From: Bacteroides sp.
GTDB lineage: Bacteria > Bacteroidota > Bacteroidia > Bacteroidales > SM23-62
Assembly (NCBI GenBank): GCA_030640625.1
Contig: DAOWJB010000352.1
Location: 1 to 35,382 of the forward strand
Length of the DNA stretch: 35,382 bases
Direction: 5' to 3'
Positions 19,486-35,317 of the stretch are shown here, one piece after another. Made by a program: the position numbers and the translations under genes. The notes beneath the pieces were generated by a model. It made no database searches and was not told the origin of the DNA. It worked only from the letters and a program-made list of their open reading frames with translations. The stretch's first letter is position 1; every line of letters starts with the position of its first letter.

Positions 19486-21357
19486 ATGACAAACCTATCA
19501 GTCATTATAATCACTTTAAACGAGGAGAGAAACATCGCCAGGTGCCTGGAGTCTGTAAATGACATTGCCGATGAAATTGTGGTCGTTGATTCCTATTCCA
19601 CTGACGATACTGAAAAAATATGCAGATTATTCGGGGCCAGATTTATACAACACCGGTTTGAAGGCCATATAGAACAGAAGAACTGGGCCATTACACAGGC
19701 AAAATATCCCCATATCCTTTCGCTCGATGCCGATGAGGTTCTCTCTGCCAGGCTCAAGGCATCCATCAAGGCGGTCAAGGAAAACTGGGAATACGATGGT
19801 TACTATTGCAACCGGCTGACCAATTATTGTGGTAAATGGATCCGTCATTCCAGCTGGTATCCATCCCGGAAACTGAGATTGTGGAACAGCCGGAAGGGAG
19901 AGTGGGGAGGTATGAACCCGCATGACAGGTTTATCCTGGAAAAGGGAACCACCCGGAAATTCCTGAAGGGTGACCTCCTGCATTATTCCTATTATACCAT
20001 TCACCAGCACATTGAGCAGATCAATAAATTCTCTGATATTGCCGCCAAATCTTTTTTTGAAGTTGGCAGGAAGGCTTCCTGGTTCAACATATTATTCCAC
20101 CCGATATGGAGATTGTTCCGCGACTATGTTATCAAGTCCGGATTCATGGACGGTTTTTACGGGCTGGTTATTAGTCTGAATTCAGCACATGAAACCTTCC
20201 TGAAGTATTCCAAACTGCGGAAACTTTACAAGGATGCCGCAAATGCCTCCAAAAACAGGATTTGCTTCTTTAACAGCCTGAAAACCTGGGGTGGCGGGGA
20301 AAAATGGCATTTTGATCTGTCTACAGGACTGGCTAAAATGGGATACAATGTATTTGTCTATTGCAATCCCAGGAGTGAATTAGTGAAGAAAATTAAGGAT
20401 GCACGCGTCAGCCATCGCAGTATTGCCGTAAGTAATCTTAGTTTCCTGAATCCTTTCAAACTTATTCTCCTCTGGAGGATATTCCGCAGGGAAAGGGTAA
20501 AAACCCTGATCATGAACCTGTCTTCCGATTTAAAGGTTGCTGGAATTGCTGCAAAACTGGCAGGGGTAGATAACATCATTTACAAAAGGGCGAACGCCAT
20601 CCCTGTAAGGAATACATTCCTGAACAGGTTCCTGTACAGACGGATTATAACCCGGATGATTGCCAATTCTGAAGAGACAAAGCGTTCCATCCTGGCCAAT
20701 AATCCGAAACTTATCCATCCATCCAAGATACAGGTCATTTATCCAGGTATTGAATTGATTGACAGGGAAAAACTTAAGCAGAAACAAATCTACCGGAGAA
20801 AAGATGGTGAGATCATCCTGGGCAACGCGGGCCGGCTTTCCGAAGAAAAGGGCCAGATATACCTGATCCACCTGGCAGAGATCCTGAAGGAGAGAGGGAT
20901 AAAATTCAGGATCCTGGTCGCCGGCACCGGGAAACTGAAAACCTGGCTTAAAAAACAGGCCAGGCAGCGAAATGTTCACAGGGAGGTTTTATTTCTGGGC
21001 TTTATTGACAATGTGGAACAGTTTTATATGGATATCGATATTTTCCTGTTGACTTCTTTATGGGAAGGATTTGGATATGTCATGGTGGAAGCAATGGCAG
21101 AGAAAAAACCGGTCATTGCTTTCGATATCAAAAGCTCGGCTGAAGTAGTTAATAACGGGAAGACTGGATTCCTTGTCCCACGAGGAAACGTAGAAGCCAT
21201 GGCTCAGAAAGTTATTGAACTGGCAGGAAATAAAAAACTGCGGCAGGAATTCGGCGACAAAGGCTACCAGCGTGTTGAATCCCTTTTTACCATTGATCAT
21301 ACCATTGAGGAGATAAGGGATTTTATTACTGCCGAGAACGGCTTTTCTAGGAAATAA
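19486..21357 (+). CDS. Two-domain glycosyltransferase, GT2 fused to GT4
   Basis: 623 residues. The first ~230 are a GT2 domain of the WaaE/KdtX type (LSVIIITLNEERNIARCLES, EIVVVDSYSTDDTE, the DxD of LSLDADEVLS at 79-88, RKLRLWNSRKGEWGG), a family that adds sugars to LPS core. From about residue 256 to the end is a GT4-type GT-B domain (ICFFNSLKTWGGGEKWH, LGNAGRLSEEKGQIYLIHLA, LFLGFIDNVEQFY, and TSLWEGFGYVMVEAMAEKKP with the two conserved Glu). One polypeptide could add two successive sugars to lipid A-core or another lipid-linked glycan. It lies 42 bases after murF-alr, with TAATTTCG (one mismatch to a -7 box) in between, and begins the glycan region. Confidence 0.88.
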   Translation: MTNLSVIIITLNEERNIARCLESVNDIADEIVVVDSYSTDDTEKICRLFGARFIQHRFEGHIEQKNWAITQAKYPHILSLDADEVLSARLKASIKAVKENWEYDGYYCNRLTNYCGKWIRHSSWYPSRKLRLWNSRKGEWGGMNPHDRFILEKGTTRKFLKGDLLHYSYYTIHQHIEQINKFSDIAAKSFFEVGRKASWFNILFHPIWRLFRDYVIKSGFMDGFYGLVISLNSAHETFLKYSKLRKLYKDAANASKNRICFFNSLKTWGGGEKWHFDLSTGLAKMGYNVFVYCNPRSELVKKIKDARVSHRSIAVSNLSFLNPFKLILLWRIFRRERVKTLIMNLSSDLKVAGIAAKLAGVDNIIYKRANAIPVRNTFLNRFLYRRIITRMIANSEETKRSILANNPKLIHPSKIQVIYPGIELIDREKLKQKQIYRRKDGEIILGNAGRLSEEKGQIYLIHLAEILKERGIKFRILVAGTGKLKTWLKKQARQRNVHREVLFLGFIDNVEQFYMDIDIFLLTSLWEGFGYVMVEAMAEKKPVIAFDIKSSAEVVNNGKTGFLVPRGNVEAMAQKVIELAGNKKLRQEFGDKGYQRVESLFTIDHTIEEIRDFITAENGFSRK

Positions 21358-21494
21358 AATGAATATACTTCTCGGCCTGGAATTCAAGCCCCCCACAAAA
21401 AAAGATATAATACACTCAATACCAGGTGACATTGAGAAAAACCGAATTTGAATCAATTTTCAAATTAGATCTCTCAGCGAATCCCAGGTTAGAG

Positions 21495-21513
21495 AAGGTC
21501 AGAGACCTTTTTT
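21495..21513 (+). terminator. Short intrinsic terminator after the GT2-GT4 gene
   Basis: AAGGTC (21495-21500) pairs perfectly with GACCTT (21504-21509) around an AGA loop, and the stem runs into six T. It is 138 bases past the gene, so it is either a distal terminator or belongs to the remnant frame. Confidence 0.5.
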
Positions 21514-21702
21514 GTTTTGGGGTTTTTTAAACTGCTCATACTTTAAAAAAGTCTCAGCCAGAAGTTTTTTTAAATCATCGTTCTCCTTCAGCGCATCGTT
21601 ATAATCAGTTTCGCTGTCGATGTGTTTAAGATTCGTGTGAAGTATTATATCGATACAAAAATATGAACAATAAGGAATTCTTGTAATTTTATCCAGTAAT
21701 AA
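21499..21702 (-). pseudogene. Orphan C-terminal-looking reading frame
   Basis: A minus-strand frame of 67 codons between two stops, with no ATG or GTG. The C-terminal half looks like real protein: a charged helical stretch, DALKENDDLKKLLAETFLKY, then EQFKKPQNKKGL. The first half (RIPYCSYFCIDIILHTNLKH) is less convincing. It could be the tail of a lost gene, possibly of mobile origin, but I do not recognise the family. It could also be chance in AT-rich DNA. Confidence 0.3.
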
Positions 21703-21710
21703 TCACATCC

Positions 21711-22691
21711 ATGAAAATTCTTTTTATCGGTTCGAGAAAATATGATTACCTGCAGGATCTAACCTACAGTGGACTAATCAAGGTTCTTGGTCCCAGGAAC
21801 GTAGTCGAACTGAAATGGAATCCACGATACCACCTCCCCTACAAAGAGTATCCAAAGAACATTCCGACTAGCCGGAAAGGCATTCTGAATCCTCTCCTGA
21901 GCAATAGAAGAAATTATAATATGGTTCTGGTGGCAGCTGCCAAACCAGACTGCTTCAAGAGCTTTCTCTCCATTGCTTCTGATATACCGGCAAACGTACC
22001 CGTGGTTTTCATCGATGGAGGTGACCGGCAGGATTTCGGAGGGGACCTGGAAAGGATTGGGTATCCAGGCCTTTATAATGAGGCACTGAATCTCAGGCCC
22101 TTCGATGTAATATTTAAGAGGGAGTACCTGGAAGACACTCAATACCCTGATAATGTATTCCCACTCCCCCTTTCAATCAATTATAACCGTATTCCTAAAA
22201 CCGGAGTACAAAAAAAATACCAGGTCGCTTTCTGGGCTGTAGAAGGGCACCCAATCCGTACCCGGGTTCTCGAAATGCTTGAAGACCAGTTTGACTGCCA
22301 GGAGAACGGAACTGTCAGGAACCAGGAATTTAAAAAGTATAAACGAAAGGGGAAATATTATTTACAGGAACTGGCTGCCTGCATGATCAACCTGAGTTTT
22401 CGCGGTGGTGGATGGGATACCCTCAGGTACTGGGAAATTCCGGCAGTTGGGAGTTTTATGATAAGCCAGCCAATGAATATAGTAATACCGAATGATTTTC
22501 AAGCAGGCAGGGAAGCTGTATTCTGCGAAAAGGATGCCTCTGATCTGCTTGAGCTCTGCAGTTATTACCTGGCACATCCGGAAGAGCGGGAAAAAATTGC
22601 CAGGCAGGGTGCTGTACACGCCCGGGAATATCACAGCGATGGGGCAAGGGCAAGGTACATCCTGGGAGTTCTCTCAGAAACTAAAATTTAA
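21711..22691 (+). CDS. CgeB-like GT-B glycosyltransferase
   Basis: 326 residues with the layout of the CgeB / Glyco_trans_1_2 group. The N-terminal part begins MKILFIGSRKYDYLQDLTYS and includes FIDGGDRQDFGG and PFDVIFKREYL. The C-terminal sugar-nucleotide domain has LAACMINLSFRGGGWDTLRY, WEIPAVGSFMISQP and CEKDASDLLELCSYYLAHPE, ending in a helical AREYHSDGARARYIL. Such enzymes modify surface polysaccharide or glycoprotein glycans; the donor is not readable. No membrane segment was seen. It is separated by three bases from the next glycosyltransferase gene, so the two form an operon. Confidence 0.8.
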   Translation: MKILFIGSRKYDYLQDLTYSGLIKVLGPRNVVELKWNPRYHLPYKEYPKNIPTSRKGILNPLLSNRRNYNMVLVAAAKPDCFKSFLSIASDIPANVPVVFIDGGDRQDFGGDLERIGYPGLYNEALNLRPFDVIFKREYLEDTQYPDNVFPLPLSINYNRIPKTGVQKKYQVAFWAVEGHPIRTRVLEMLEDQFDCQENGTVRNQEFKKYKRKGKYYLQELAACMINLSFRGGGWDTLRYWEIPAVGSFMISQPMNIVIPNDFQAGREAVFCEKDASDLLELCSYYLAHPEEREKIARQGAVHAREYHSDGARARYILGVLSETKI

Positions 22692-22694
22692 AAT

Positions 22695-23513
22695 ATGGAT
22701 GCTCCCGGACTCTCCCTGATCATATCTTTTTATAACAAGCTCGATAACCTGAGACTAATACTGGCAAGCCTGAAGCTCCAGAGTTTCTCTGATTTCGAAG
22801 TCATGATTGCAGACGATGGATCATCGGAGGAGGTTACCAGGGAATTGGAAGATATCATTCAGAATGCTGATATTCGTATAAGGCATATCTGGCATGAAGA
22901 CATGGGATGGAGAAAGAACATTATCCTTAACAATTCAATCGTAGCCAGCCACAGTGATTACCTGGTTTTTATTGACGGGGACTGCATCCTTCATCCCAGG
23001 TGCCTGGAAGAACATTATAAGCTCCGCAGGAAAAACTGGATTATCGCCGGACGCAGGGTAAACCTTTCCCCTTCTCTTTCTGCGGGACTTACCCCCCGGA
23101 AAGTCAACAAAGGAAGGTTGTGGGGATCTTCGATGATAAAAATGGCATGCGACAGCTTCCGGCATGAAAACACACATTTTGAAAATGCCATCTATATCAG
23201 GAGTCCCTTTATACGCTCCAGGATCAACAAAAAAGACAAGGGTGTCCTGGGCTCGCATTTCTCCCTGTACAAAGGTGATATTATGGCGGTTAATGGTTTT
23301 GACGAAAGGTTTTTACACCCTGCAGTCGGAGAAGATACGGATCTTGAATTAAGGCTCCGCAGGAACGGCATGAAGGTACAGACCCTTAAACATATCGCCA
23401 TCCAGTACCATATTTATCATAAGACCCTTCCCCGGGAGGAAAGCAACCTCAGGATCATGGAGGAAAATAATCTACAGGGAGTAATCTACACACCCCATGG
23501 CATCCGAAAATAA
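22695..23513 (+). CDS. Family 2 glycosyltransferase with galactosyltransferase-like C-terminus
   Basis: A 272-residue soluble GT-A enzyme. It starts LSLIISFYNKLDNLRLILAS, then VMIADDGSSEEVTRELED, the DxD of YLVFIDGDCILHPRCLEEHY (about residues 93-112), and a C-terminal block (HFSLYKGDIMAVNGFDERF, GEDTDLELRLRRNGMKVQ) like that of chondroitin polymerase and beta-galactosyltransferase-type GT2 proteins. The ED of GEDTDL is the likely catalytic base. It would extend the same glycan as the two preceding enzymes. The gene is convergent with the chimeric relic 15 bases downstream. Confidence 0.88.
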   Translation: MDAPGLSLIISFYNKLDNLRLILASLKLQSFSDFEVMIADDGSSEEVTRELEDIIQNADIRIRHIWHEDMGWRKNIILNNSIVASHSDYLVFIDGDCILHPRCLEEHYKLRRKNWIIAGRRVNLSPSLSAGLTPRKVNKGRLWGSSMIKMACDSFRHENTHFENAIYIRSPFIRSRINKKDKGVLGSHFSLYKGDIMAVNGFDERFLHPAVGEDTDLELRLRRNGMKVQTLKHIAIQYHIYHKTLPREESNLRIMEENNLQGVIYTPHGIRK

Positions 23514-23528
23514 AACTGGCAGTCCAGT

Positions 23529-23765
23529 CTACTGATTCGAGGCTGTGGCCTGATCGACCACACCCTTAACCCATAGTATGGTCCTGGGATGCTTGGGATC
23601 GTTTGAGATAACGGTAATCGTCTTGTTCTGCTTGCCAACCTTGATACGTGAGTCGAAAATAACCTGCACCTGGTACCCATACTTCTTCAGGTACAAAACC
23701 TGGGAATAGAGGCATTCATCATGGGACCCTCCAAGTTCAATCAGGGCAATTTTATTTGTTTTTAT
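23529..23765 (-). pseudogene. Chimeric relic: glycosyltransferase N-terminus joined to DUF1573 C-terminus
   Basis: A continuous frame of 78 codons begins two bases after the TGA of the acyltransferase gene. Its first 36 residues (KTNKIALIELGGSHDECLYS, then QVLYLKKYGYQVQVI) have the look of the first strand, loop and helix of a GT-B glycosyltransferase. From there it reads FDSRIKVGKQNKTITVISND and PKHPRTILWVKGVV, closely matching the C-terminus of the DUF1573 protein at 34.2-35.3 kb (FNSAGKVGKQNKTITIITND and on). The first codon is ATA, where ATG would be expected, and no in-frame ATG exists downstream. The likely story is an internal deletion or recombination at a VIF-coding junction plus loss of the start. 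The DNA differs from the intact DUF1573 gene mostly at third positions, so it came from an older paralogue. Initiation from a non-ATG codon cannot be excluded. Confidence 0.72.
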
Positions 23766-23767
23766 GG

Positions 23768-24682
23768 TCAGGAATTGGATAAATCTCCGATATACACCGG
23801 GTTCTGTGCTTCATGCCTGAAATACTTCCAGCGTTTATGGGACCAGAGCCATAACTCCGGCCGCTGCAGAATGTTTCTTTCTACAATGGCATGATATTTT
23901 CTGGTTATCAGGAACTCGGGTACCTCCGCAGGATTCTCGCATATTAGCTTAAATTCTGCGCTGTAATATCCCCTTCGTATTTTTTGTATATCGAGAAATA
24001 ATACCGGGTAATTAAACCTTCTGGCAATCTTTTCTGGTCCGGTTATTACCGGCGTATCCTGGTTCAGGAAGGTAGTCCAGTGCTGGATACTGGTCCACTG
24101 CGGACGCTGATCAGCCACTGTATAAAGAACCACAGGCTTTTTGTCCTTCTGATAGGTCACCAGGGTTCTCAGGGTTGATTCCATCGGAATGCCGATGCCA
24201 CCGAACTGGGTCCTTAAATGAAGAAAAAACTTGTCAAAATATTTGTTTTGCAGAGGCTTATAAATTCCCAGAAGAGAGTGGGAGGATAGTCTAGTTATGC
24301 GGTTGCCCCATTCCCAGTTGCCATAATGACTTAATAACAGGACAATGCTCTTATTCTGTTTATAATAGTCCTGCAGCAAATCCGGATTTTTGAAATGGAT
24401 TCTTCTGGTATTCTCCTTTTCTCCCATATGGATGCGGTAGGCAGATTCGATAAAGTAGTCACAGAGTTGCCGGTAAAATTTCCTGGCAATGCGGCTGATC
24501 TCTTGCGGGGACTTATCGGGCAGGGAATTCTTTAAGTTTTGATGGACCGTCTTTTTCCGGTATCCAACAAGGTAAAAAAGGATCAAGAAAATAAAATCAG
24601 AAAGCAGGTACAGGACGCGCAAGGGCAGGAGGGTGATCAGCCAGATAAATGAATAAGCCAGGTAGAACAGAATTTTTTTCAT
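23768..24682 (-). CDS. LpxL-like lipid A / lysophospholipid acyltransferase
   Basis: 304 residues of the HtrB/LpxL family, membrane-bound acyltransferases that add a secondary acyl chain to lipid A or related lipids. An N-terminal hydrophobic anchor spans about residues 5-40. The catalytic HX4E motif is SHYGNWEWG (His119, Glu124). Further family marks are GIYKPLQNKYFDKF, the VADQRPQ region (DQ motif) and FLNQDTPVITGPEKIARRF. The C-terminus, WLWSHKRWKY, is the usual RPExWxWxHxRW-type ending. It follows the Crp/Fnr gene by six bases, so the two are probably one operon that once continued into the glycosyltransferase whose relic lies downstream. Confidence 0.92.
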   Translation of the reverse strand: MKKILFYLAYSFIWLITLLPLRVLYLLSDFIFLILFYLVGYRKKTVHQNLKNSLPDKSPQEISRIARKFYRQLCDYFIESAYRIHMGEKENTRRIHFKNPDLLQDYYKQNKSIVLLLSHYGNWEWGNRITRLSSHSLLGIYKPLQNKYFDKFFLHLRTQFGGIGIPMESTLRTLVTYQKDKKPVVLYTVADQRPQWTSIQHWTTFLNQDTPVITGPEKIARRFNYPVLFLDIQKIRRGYYSAEFKLICENPAEVPEFLITRKYHAIVERNILQRPELWLWSHKRWKYFRHEAQNPVYIGDLSNS

Positions 24683-34228: not shown

Positions 34229-35317
34229 ATGAAAAAAGAAATTATATTCCTGGCTTTAATATTTATGATTCCTTCCATATTAGTCAATGCACAAACCAAG
34301 GATGCAAATATTTCCTTTGATATAGAAGTTCATAATTTTGGAAAAATAAATGAGGCTGACGGTACGGTTACCGTTAATTTCGGATTTACCAACACAGGCA
34401 GCCTGCCATTAATGATCAAACAGGTGCATGCCAGTTGCGGATGTACTTCCCCAAACTGGTCAAAGGAACCCATCCTTCCCGGCAAGAAAGGTTTTGTCAG
34501 TGCCACCTACAACCCCAAGAGCCGGCCGGGCCCCTTCAGTAAGACAGTTACTGTGGTTTCCAACGCCAGCACGGCGAACAAGGTACTCACCATCAAGGGG
34601 GATGTAATTCCAAAGCCCAAATCCCTGGAGGATATTTACAGGTTCAGTATGGACAAGATCAGGCTGAAAACCAATCATATGAGTTTTGCCCGGGTGGTGA
34701 AGGACAAGCAGGGAATAAAGACTGTGGAAATGGTGAATGTCTCGGATAAGCCTGTCAAGGTTACCTTCAAGCGGGTGCCACCACATCTAACCCTGACAAC
34801 CAGTCCGGCAACATTGGACCCCGGACAGAAAGGGGTTATTAAAGGAATTTATAATTCTGAATTAAAGGAGGACTGGGGTTTTCTTGTCGACCGGGTAGAT
34901 GTGATGCTTGACGGCCAGTATAATTCAGCAAACCGCCTGACTGTCAGTGCCACCATCGAAGAGGATTTTGCAAGCTTGACGACTGAACAAAAGGCCAATG
35001 CTCCCAAGATTGCTTTTAGTGAAAGTACATTTGAATTTCAGCCGATCAAACAGGGGGAAAAGGGAGAACATATATTTACCATCAGCAACAACGGGAGGTC
35101 TGACCTGATCATCCGCAAGGTAAGGGCCAGTTGCGGCTGTACTGCTGTAAGTCCCAAAGAAAGGGTAGTGACTGCAGGCGGGAGCACCACCATGAAAGTG
35201 ATTTTCAACAGTGCAGGAAAGGTTGGTAAACAGAACAAGACCATTACCATTATCACTAATGATCCTGCTCATTCGAGAACTATTCTCTGGGTAAAAGGAA
35301 CCGTAACCCAATCCTAA
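34229..35317 (+). CDS. Secreted DUF1573-domain protein
   Basis: 362 residues with a signal peptide (MKKEIIFLALIFMIPSILVN, cut after AQ). Three immunoglobulin-like (ASH/MSP-type) modules are visible: about 28-130, 140-240 and 255-362. The first and third carry the DUF1573 hallmark SCGCT (Cys70/72 and Cys302/304) with a following PGxxG and TVTVVSN / TITIITND strand; the middle one lacks it. DUF1573 proteins are abundant in Bacteroidota, exported, and of unknown function; the paired cysteines could form a disulfide or bind metal. It is transcribed alone and closed by a strong terminator. Its last ~33 residues have a close relative in the chimeric relic at 23.5-23.8 kb. Confidence 0.93.
   Translation: MKKEIIFLALIFMIPSILVNAQTKDANISFDIEVHNFGKINEADGTVTVNFGFTNTGSLPLMIKQVHASCGCTSPNWSKEPILPGKKGFVSATYNPKSRPGPFSKTVTVVSNASTANKVLTIKGDVIPKPKSLEDIYRFSMDKIRLKTNHMSFARVVKDKQGIKTVEMVNVSDKPVKVTFKRVPPHLTLTTSPATLDPGQKGVIKGIYNSELKEDWGFLVDRVDVMLDGQYNSANRLTVSATIEEDFASLTTEQKANAPKIAFSESTFEFQPIKQGEKGEHIFTISNNGRSDLIIRKVRASCGCTAVSPKERVVTAGGSTTMKVIFNSAGKVGKQNKTITIITNDPAHSRTILWVKGTVTQS

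Follow-up and report, generated by a model that had tools for sequence, protein, structure and literature searches.

What is the origin of the short open frame that lies directly downstream of an LpxL-type acyltransferase gene in the 35,382-nucleotide stretch of DNA analyzed here (hereafter, the window), and does this frame encode a new small protein? A sequence-only reading had described one open frame of 78 codons in which ATA stands for a lost ATG two bases after the acyltransferase stop, and on the minus strand this description is exact: the ATA occupies 23765-23763, the TAG ends at 23529, no stop interrupts the 78 codons, and the order at the upstream edge is TGA (23770-23768), CC and ATA, which accounts for the two bases. 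A plus-strand reading of 23529-23765 was rejected, as it contains three internal stops. The frame is composed of about 34 codons from a glycosyltransferase start followed by about 44 codons from a DUF1573 end, and we regard it as very probably a scar at the junction where a two-gene sugar-transferase cassette came in by horizontal replacement. The features at this junction are the following.

23529..23765, minus strand: chimeric frame of 78 codons, open from ATA to TAG, interpreted as a pseudogene junction
23664..23765, minus strand: 5' remnant of the resident GT-B glycosyltransferase gene, codons 1-34, start codon ATG changed to ATA (tblastn and nucleotide match to genome G002)
23529..23663, minus strand: 3' end of a G003-type DUF1573 gene (VIFDS...ASNQ stop), apparently arrived with the cassette (nucleotide identity, tree, Pfam)
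23768..24682, minus strand: LpxL-type lipid A acyltransferase, intact, directly upstream of the chimera (Pfam Lip_A_acyltrans, E 2.5e-34)

The first half was compared with the related genome G002, whose acyltransferase counterpart is 82% identical to that of the window at the amino acid level. At the homologous site of G002, TGA-CC-ATG opens an intact GT-B gene of 369 amino acids (L035 13446-14552) with no DUF1573 gene after it, and chimera residues 1-36 align to this gene with 72% amino acid identity over 36 residues (tblastn, E 1e-13), whereas the nucleotide match of the window to G002 stops at 23658. The intact parent belongs to a Bacteroidota family marked by a near-invariant SHDECLYSQ motif, homologues of which are spread across the phylum. 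Pfam, NCBIfam and PDB sequence searches with the G002 protein returned no match, and weak Glyco_transf_4 matches were detected in 5 of 18 homologues. An AlphaFold model built from these 18 homologues (mean pLDDT 90) retrieved BshA and other GT-B transferases as top Foldseek matches (TM 0.7, E 3e-10); it was this comparison of predicted folds alone that settled the parent as GT-B, and the previous assignment of the first half to a GT-B N-terminus holds because the model matches GT-B enzymes such as BshA. The parent would thereby have the same fold as BshA, PimB' and WaaG, although its family differs from known GT-B enzymes in lacking a Pfam or NCBIfam match in G002 and in exhibiting about 10% identity to solved structures. 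What the chimera retains of it is the strand-helix-strand that opens a Rossmann domain and nothing more, about 34 of 369 codons, where a functional GT-B enzyme requires both Rossmann-like domains.

The second half corresponds to the last ~40 residues of a protein with DUF1573 (PF07610), an ASH/HYDIN-like Ig domain. Chimera residues 32-70 cover less than half of the domain, aligning to profile positions 61-98 of 98 with an E-value of 4.7e-5 and 23.8 bits; this score is slightly below the curated cut-off of 26.1 bits because the tail alone is present. In comparison with its DUF1573 parent, the chimera is truncated, without the conserved cysteine-bearing part and without the N-terminal start. The same tail also matches the DUF1573 protein encoded elsewhere in the window (E 2.5e-14), so that the recognition of a DUF1573 tail and of a gene-fusion remnant was borne out, and the two-part similarity is not due to chance. 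The proposal that the halves meet at a VIF-coding junction present in both families did not survive the comparison with the parents, since VIF occurs on the DUF1573 side (KVIFDS in G003) and the G002 glycosyltransferase reads VHIILFED; any similarity at the junction is short, at most of the order of 10 bases.

Which DUF1573 gene provided this tail can be read from its nucleotides. Over 105 nt, the tail of the chimera shares 82% of its nucleotides with the G003 tail and 68% with the copy of the window, it groups as sister to G003 in a tree of these 105 bases (support 0.87), and it shares with the G003 protein a longer C-terminus. The tail of the window's own gene is instead 84-85% identical to those of G001 and G002. 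On the grounds of this tail comparison and of the flank of the own gene, an origin of the chimera tail from the window's own DUF1573 gene was rejected.

34229..35317, plus strand: intact DUF1573 gene of the window itself; its 3' flank is G002-like and lacks the cassette

In genome G005, two DUF1573 copies are found on separate contigs (C194 and C237; L039 and L040) with tails 94% identical, which is either a duplicate or a strain mixture in the metagenome-assembled genome (MAG).

The recipient locus was delimited by its colinearity with G002, which extends at approximately 81-82% nucleotide identity over window positions 35381-23658 and again over 21390-15868. Between these two blocks, 937 bp of the glycosyltransferase gene in G002 stand against 2.27 kb in the window, where codons ~37-348 of the resident gene are replaced by a segment of different affinity. 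This segment forms a single uninterrupted 2.1-kb match to G003 from 23668 to 21570. Beyond it, the end of the resident gene is still recognizable, with 79% nucleotide identity to the G002 gene end over 91 bp and 10 of 11 amino acids shared (EFQAEKYIHFI), and the ~180 bp left between this remnant and the segment have no match in six related genomes of the genus.

21570..23668: whole putatively acquired segment, colinear with G003 (L037 11171-9046), 76.3% nucleotide identity
22695..23513, plus strand: cassette gene 1, GT2-family glycosyltransferase, intact (Pfam Glycos_transf_2)
21711..22691, plus strand: cassette gene 2, Glyco_trans_1_2 glycosyltransferase, intact (Pfam PF13524)
21571..21648, minus strand: initial 26 codons of the gene located beyond the cassette in G003 (MTLHTNLKHIDSEPEYNEALSENENV), ATG changed to ATA (tblastn)
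21391..21569: unmatched DNA, about 180 bp, between the segment and the glycosyltransferase 3' remnant
21329..21390, minus strand: 3' remnant of the resident GT-B gene, in the region of its last ~20 codons (nucleotide and amino acid match to the G002 gene end)

The arrangement in G003 accounts for both edges of the segment. There, an intact DUF1573 gene is followed by the GT2 gene, the Glyco_trans_1_2 gene and a further gene, with the DUF1573 gene lying tail to tail with the cassette, and the segment in the window begins and ends with torn pieces of the two outer neighbors, namely 44 codons from the end of DUF1573 on one side and the 26 opening codons of the post-cassette gene on the other. The latter fragment, MTLHTNLKHIDSEPEYNEALSENENV, is 65% identical to the G003 gene over 26 amino acids (tblastn, E 7e-10). 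It constitutes a mirror scar of the chimera at 21571-21648 on the minus strand, where ATA likewise takes the place of ATG. The GT2 protein is 82% identical to the product of the G003 gene adjoining DUF1573 (dN 0.12, dS 1.18) and the Glyco_trans_1_2 protein is 77% identical to its G003 neighbor, while no match to the latter was detected in congeners other than G003. G003 is the one congener with close relatives of either cassette gene, and the pair was found in genomes G000 and G003 only. Across the order, relatives of the GT2 gene occur in 22 of 393 genomes, and the short flanks examined for 18 of these 22 contained no homologue of the Glyco_trans_1_2 partner.

Divergence from G003 is lower in the cassette than in the vertical background. 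At third codon positions, the cassette is 58% identical to G003, in comparison with 46% for seven vertical neighboring genes (Fisher p 3e-8), and at four-fold sites the corresponding values are 50% and 35% (p 3e-4). The grouping of the tail with G003, in combination with this reduced divergence, makes the segment look horizontally acquired, and these sequence comparisons fit a transfer that postdates the split of the lineages and has a G003-like relative as its source. G003 itself is to be taken as a stand-in for the donor, because the identity is only 76%. Since the neighbors are whole at the donor-type locus and torn in the window, the segment would have originated at a DUF1573-type site and entered the glycosyltransferase gene. 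As expected of a horizontal replacement, the intact gene is present at the same locus in relatives (G002 and G005), a colinear donor-type segment exists elsewhere, both ends of the recipient gene (the 5' and 3' glycosyltransferase remnants) are kept around the segment, and the segment is foreign relative to the vertical background in the tail tree and at synonymous sites.

The history that these observations suggest would start from an ancestor in which an intact GT-B glycosyltransferase gene stood directly behind lpxL. Codons ~37-348 of this gene would then have given way to 2.1 kb of DNA originating in a G003-like relative, probably by illegitimate or short-homology recombination, and this DNA would have carried as cargo the two intact cassette genes and the torn ends of both donor neighbors (44 DUF1573 codons and 26 codons of the next gene). 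By chance, the two broken gene pieces at one junction, the glycosyltransferase start and the DUF1573 end, would have met in a single reading frame, and the ATG of the chimera would have been lost since the junction formed. Foreign linear DNA can be integrated by homology-facilitated or other illegitimate recombination, with recipient DNA being lost at the junction; in this known process, a foreign segment replaces recipient DNA and ends inside genes with little or no homology at a junction, as is seen here (PMC3240628). In contrast to homology-facilitated recombination, no homologous anchor end is evident at this locus and both ends look non-homologous; the route suggested here is drawn from these end sequences.

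A different history had been put forward, in which a glycosyltransferase gene and a DUF1573 gene formerly stood in a row downstream of lpxL and were fused by a deletion. Although both partial genes do lie in a suitable order and strand for such a fusion, in G002 and G005 lpxL is directly followed by the intact glycosyltransferase and then by a convergent GT-fusion gene, with no DUF1573 gene between them, and the DUF1573 gene is found approximately 11 kb from the site both in G002 and in the window. An intact glycosyltransferase followed by DUF1573 downstream of lpxL was not found in the congeners seen, which are all fragmented MAGs with 72-90% completeness and carry the glycosyltransferase alone there, and the DUF1573 end appears to have come with the foreign 2.1-kb segment. 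The 3' end of the glycosyltransferase is moreover kept beyond the cassette, which is impossible by simple deletion; the event is a replacement or an insertion, and the proposed deletion is thereby reduced to a minimal probability. A move within the genome deserves somewhat more attention, because G003 has the cassette beside the orthologous DUF1573 gene and both sites lie on one contig here: the cassette could once have stood beside the window's own DUF1573 gene and later have reached the glycosyltransferase gene 11 kb away, by copying or by relocation, with loss at the original place. Yet the chimera tail is far less similar to the own copy than that copy is to G001 and G002 (68% versus 84-85%), the own 3' flank is G002-like, and the cassette is nearer to G003 than the vertical genes are, so we consider this quite unlikely. 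An assembly chimera must also be weighed in a MAG of 352 contigs with short similarity at one junction, but it would have had to produce two independent junctions within one gene with both gene ends in place, over a shared stretch of ~10 bases that is below usual assembly words, and with a segment 24% diverged from the sole known donor-type sequence; we hold such an artifact to be very unlikely. The preferred reading is still that of a junction scar left by a horizontally acquired cassette.

Whether the scar has become a gene is a separate matter. The sequence-only reading had raised the option of a new small protein under selection. Such a protein would be translated from a weak or internal start; the absence of in-frame stops and the few nonsynonymous changes with respect to both parents speak in its favor. 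These changes are counted in a single post-fusion sequence, in both halves, and they fit a recent event, which does not by itself speak against constraint, while the codons that are conserved go back to two genes that were once functional. The open frame is likewise cheap: when the G002 gene start and the G003 DUF1573 end were joined at random, 33% of the joins were open through to the DUF1573 stop, as the DUF1573 part is open by being a gene end and the phase alone must fit. The in-frame join is thus approximately a one-in-three chance event. Start signals are poor, with no ATG in the whole frame, the earliest TTG at codon 24, the earliest internal GTG at codon 33, and no ATG, GTG or TTG in the 14 open codons upstream. 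Neither parental piece amounts to a domain, the DUF1573 part being less than half of one and the glycosyltransferase part an initial strand-helix-strand, and no match spanning both halves was detected among 98 relatives or in a scan of the GTDB genome collection, which confines the two-part architecture to one genome. As evidence for a new protein, these features do not exceed what chance would give, the option gained no support, and a functional, selected product is extremely unlikely. We assign an equally slight probability to a very young fusion protein born at the horizontal-transfer junction, with low-level translation initiated at a non-standard start that is coupled to the translation of lpxL. 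The chimera is most likely a dead remnant, a pseudogene scar, which, judging from the absent standard start, is most likely not translated.

Chimeric pseudogenes at transfer breakpoints consist of truncated host and passenger genes joined at cassette edges, in-frame or out-of-frame. The present one differs in that no stop interrupts its frame over the full length and that both of its parents can be traced inside a single genus. It offers a traced case of how swaps of envelope-sugar genes leave in-frame chimeras that resemble new genes, the two parents, the two junctions and the layout of the donor locus all being visible inside one genus, and it cautions against reading an open chimeric frame as more than weak evidence for a new protein.

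The place after lpxL has also been altered in another member of the genus. At the same site of G001 (L042 10319-11480), the glycosyltransferase gene is decayed, with two early stops, an internal loss and a 37-amino-acid middle piece left, and a gene for an FkbM-type methyltransferase adjoins it beyond. Because G001 is also without the glycosyltransferase and carries FkbM there, the post-lpxL place is a turnover site for sugar-modifying genes in this genus, and in the window the new cassette may fill the role of the lost enzyme.
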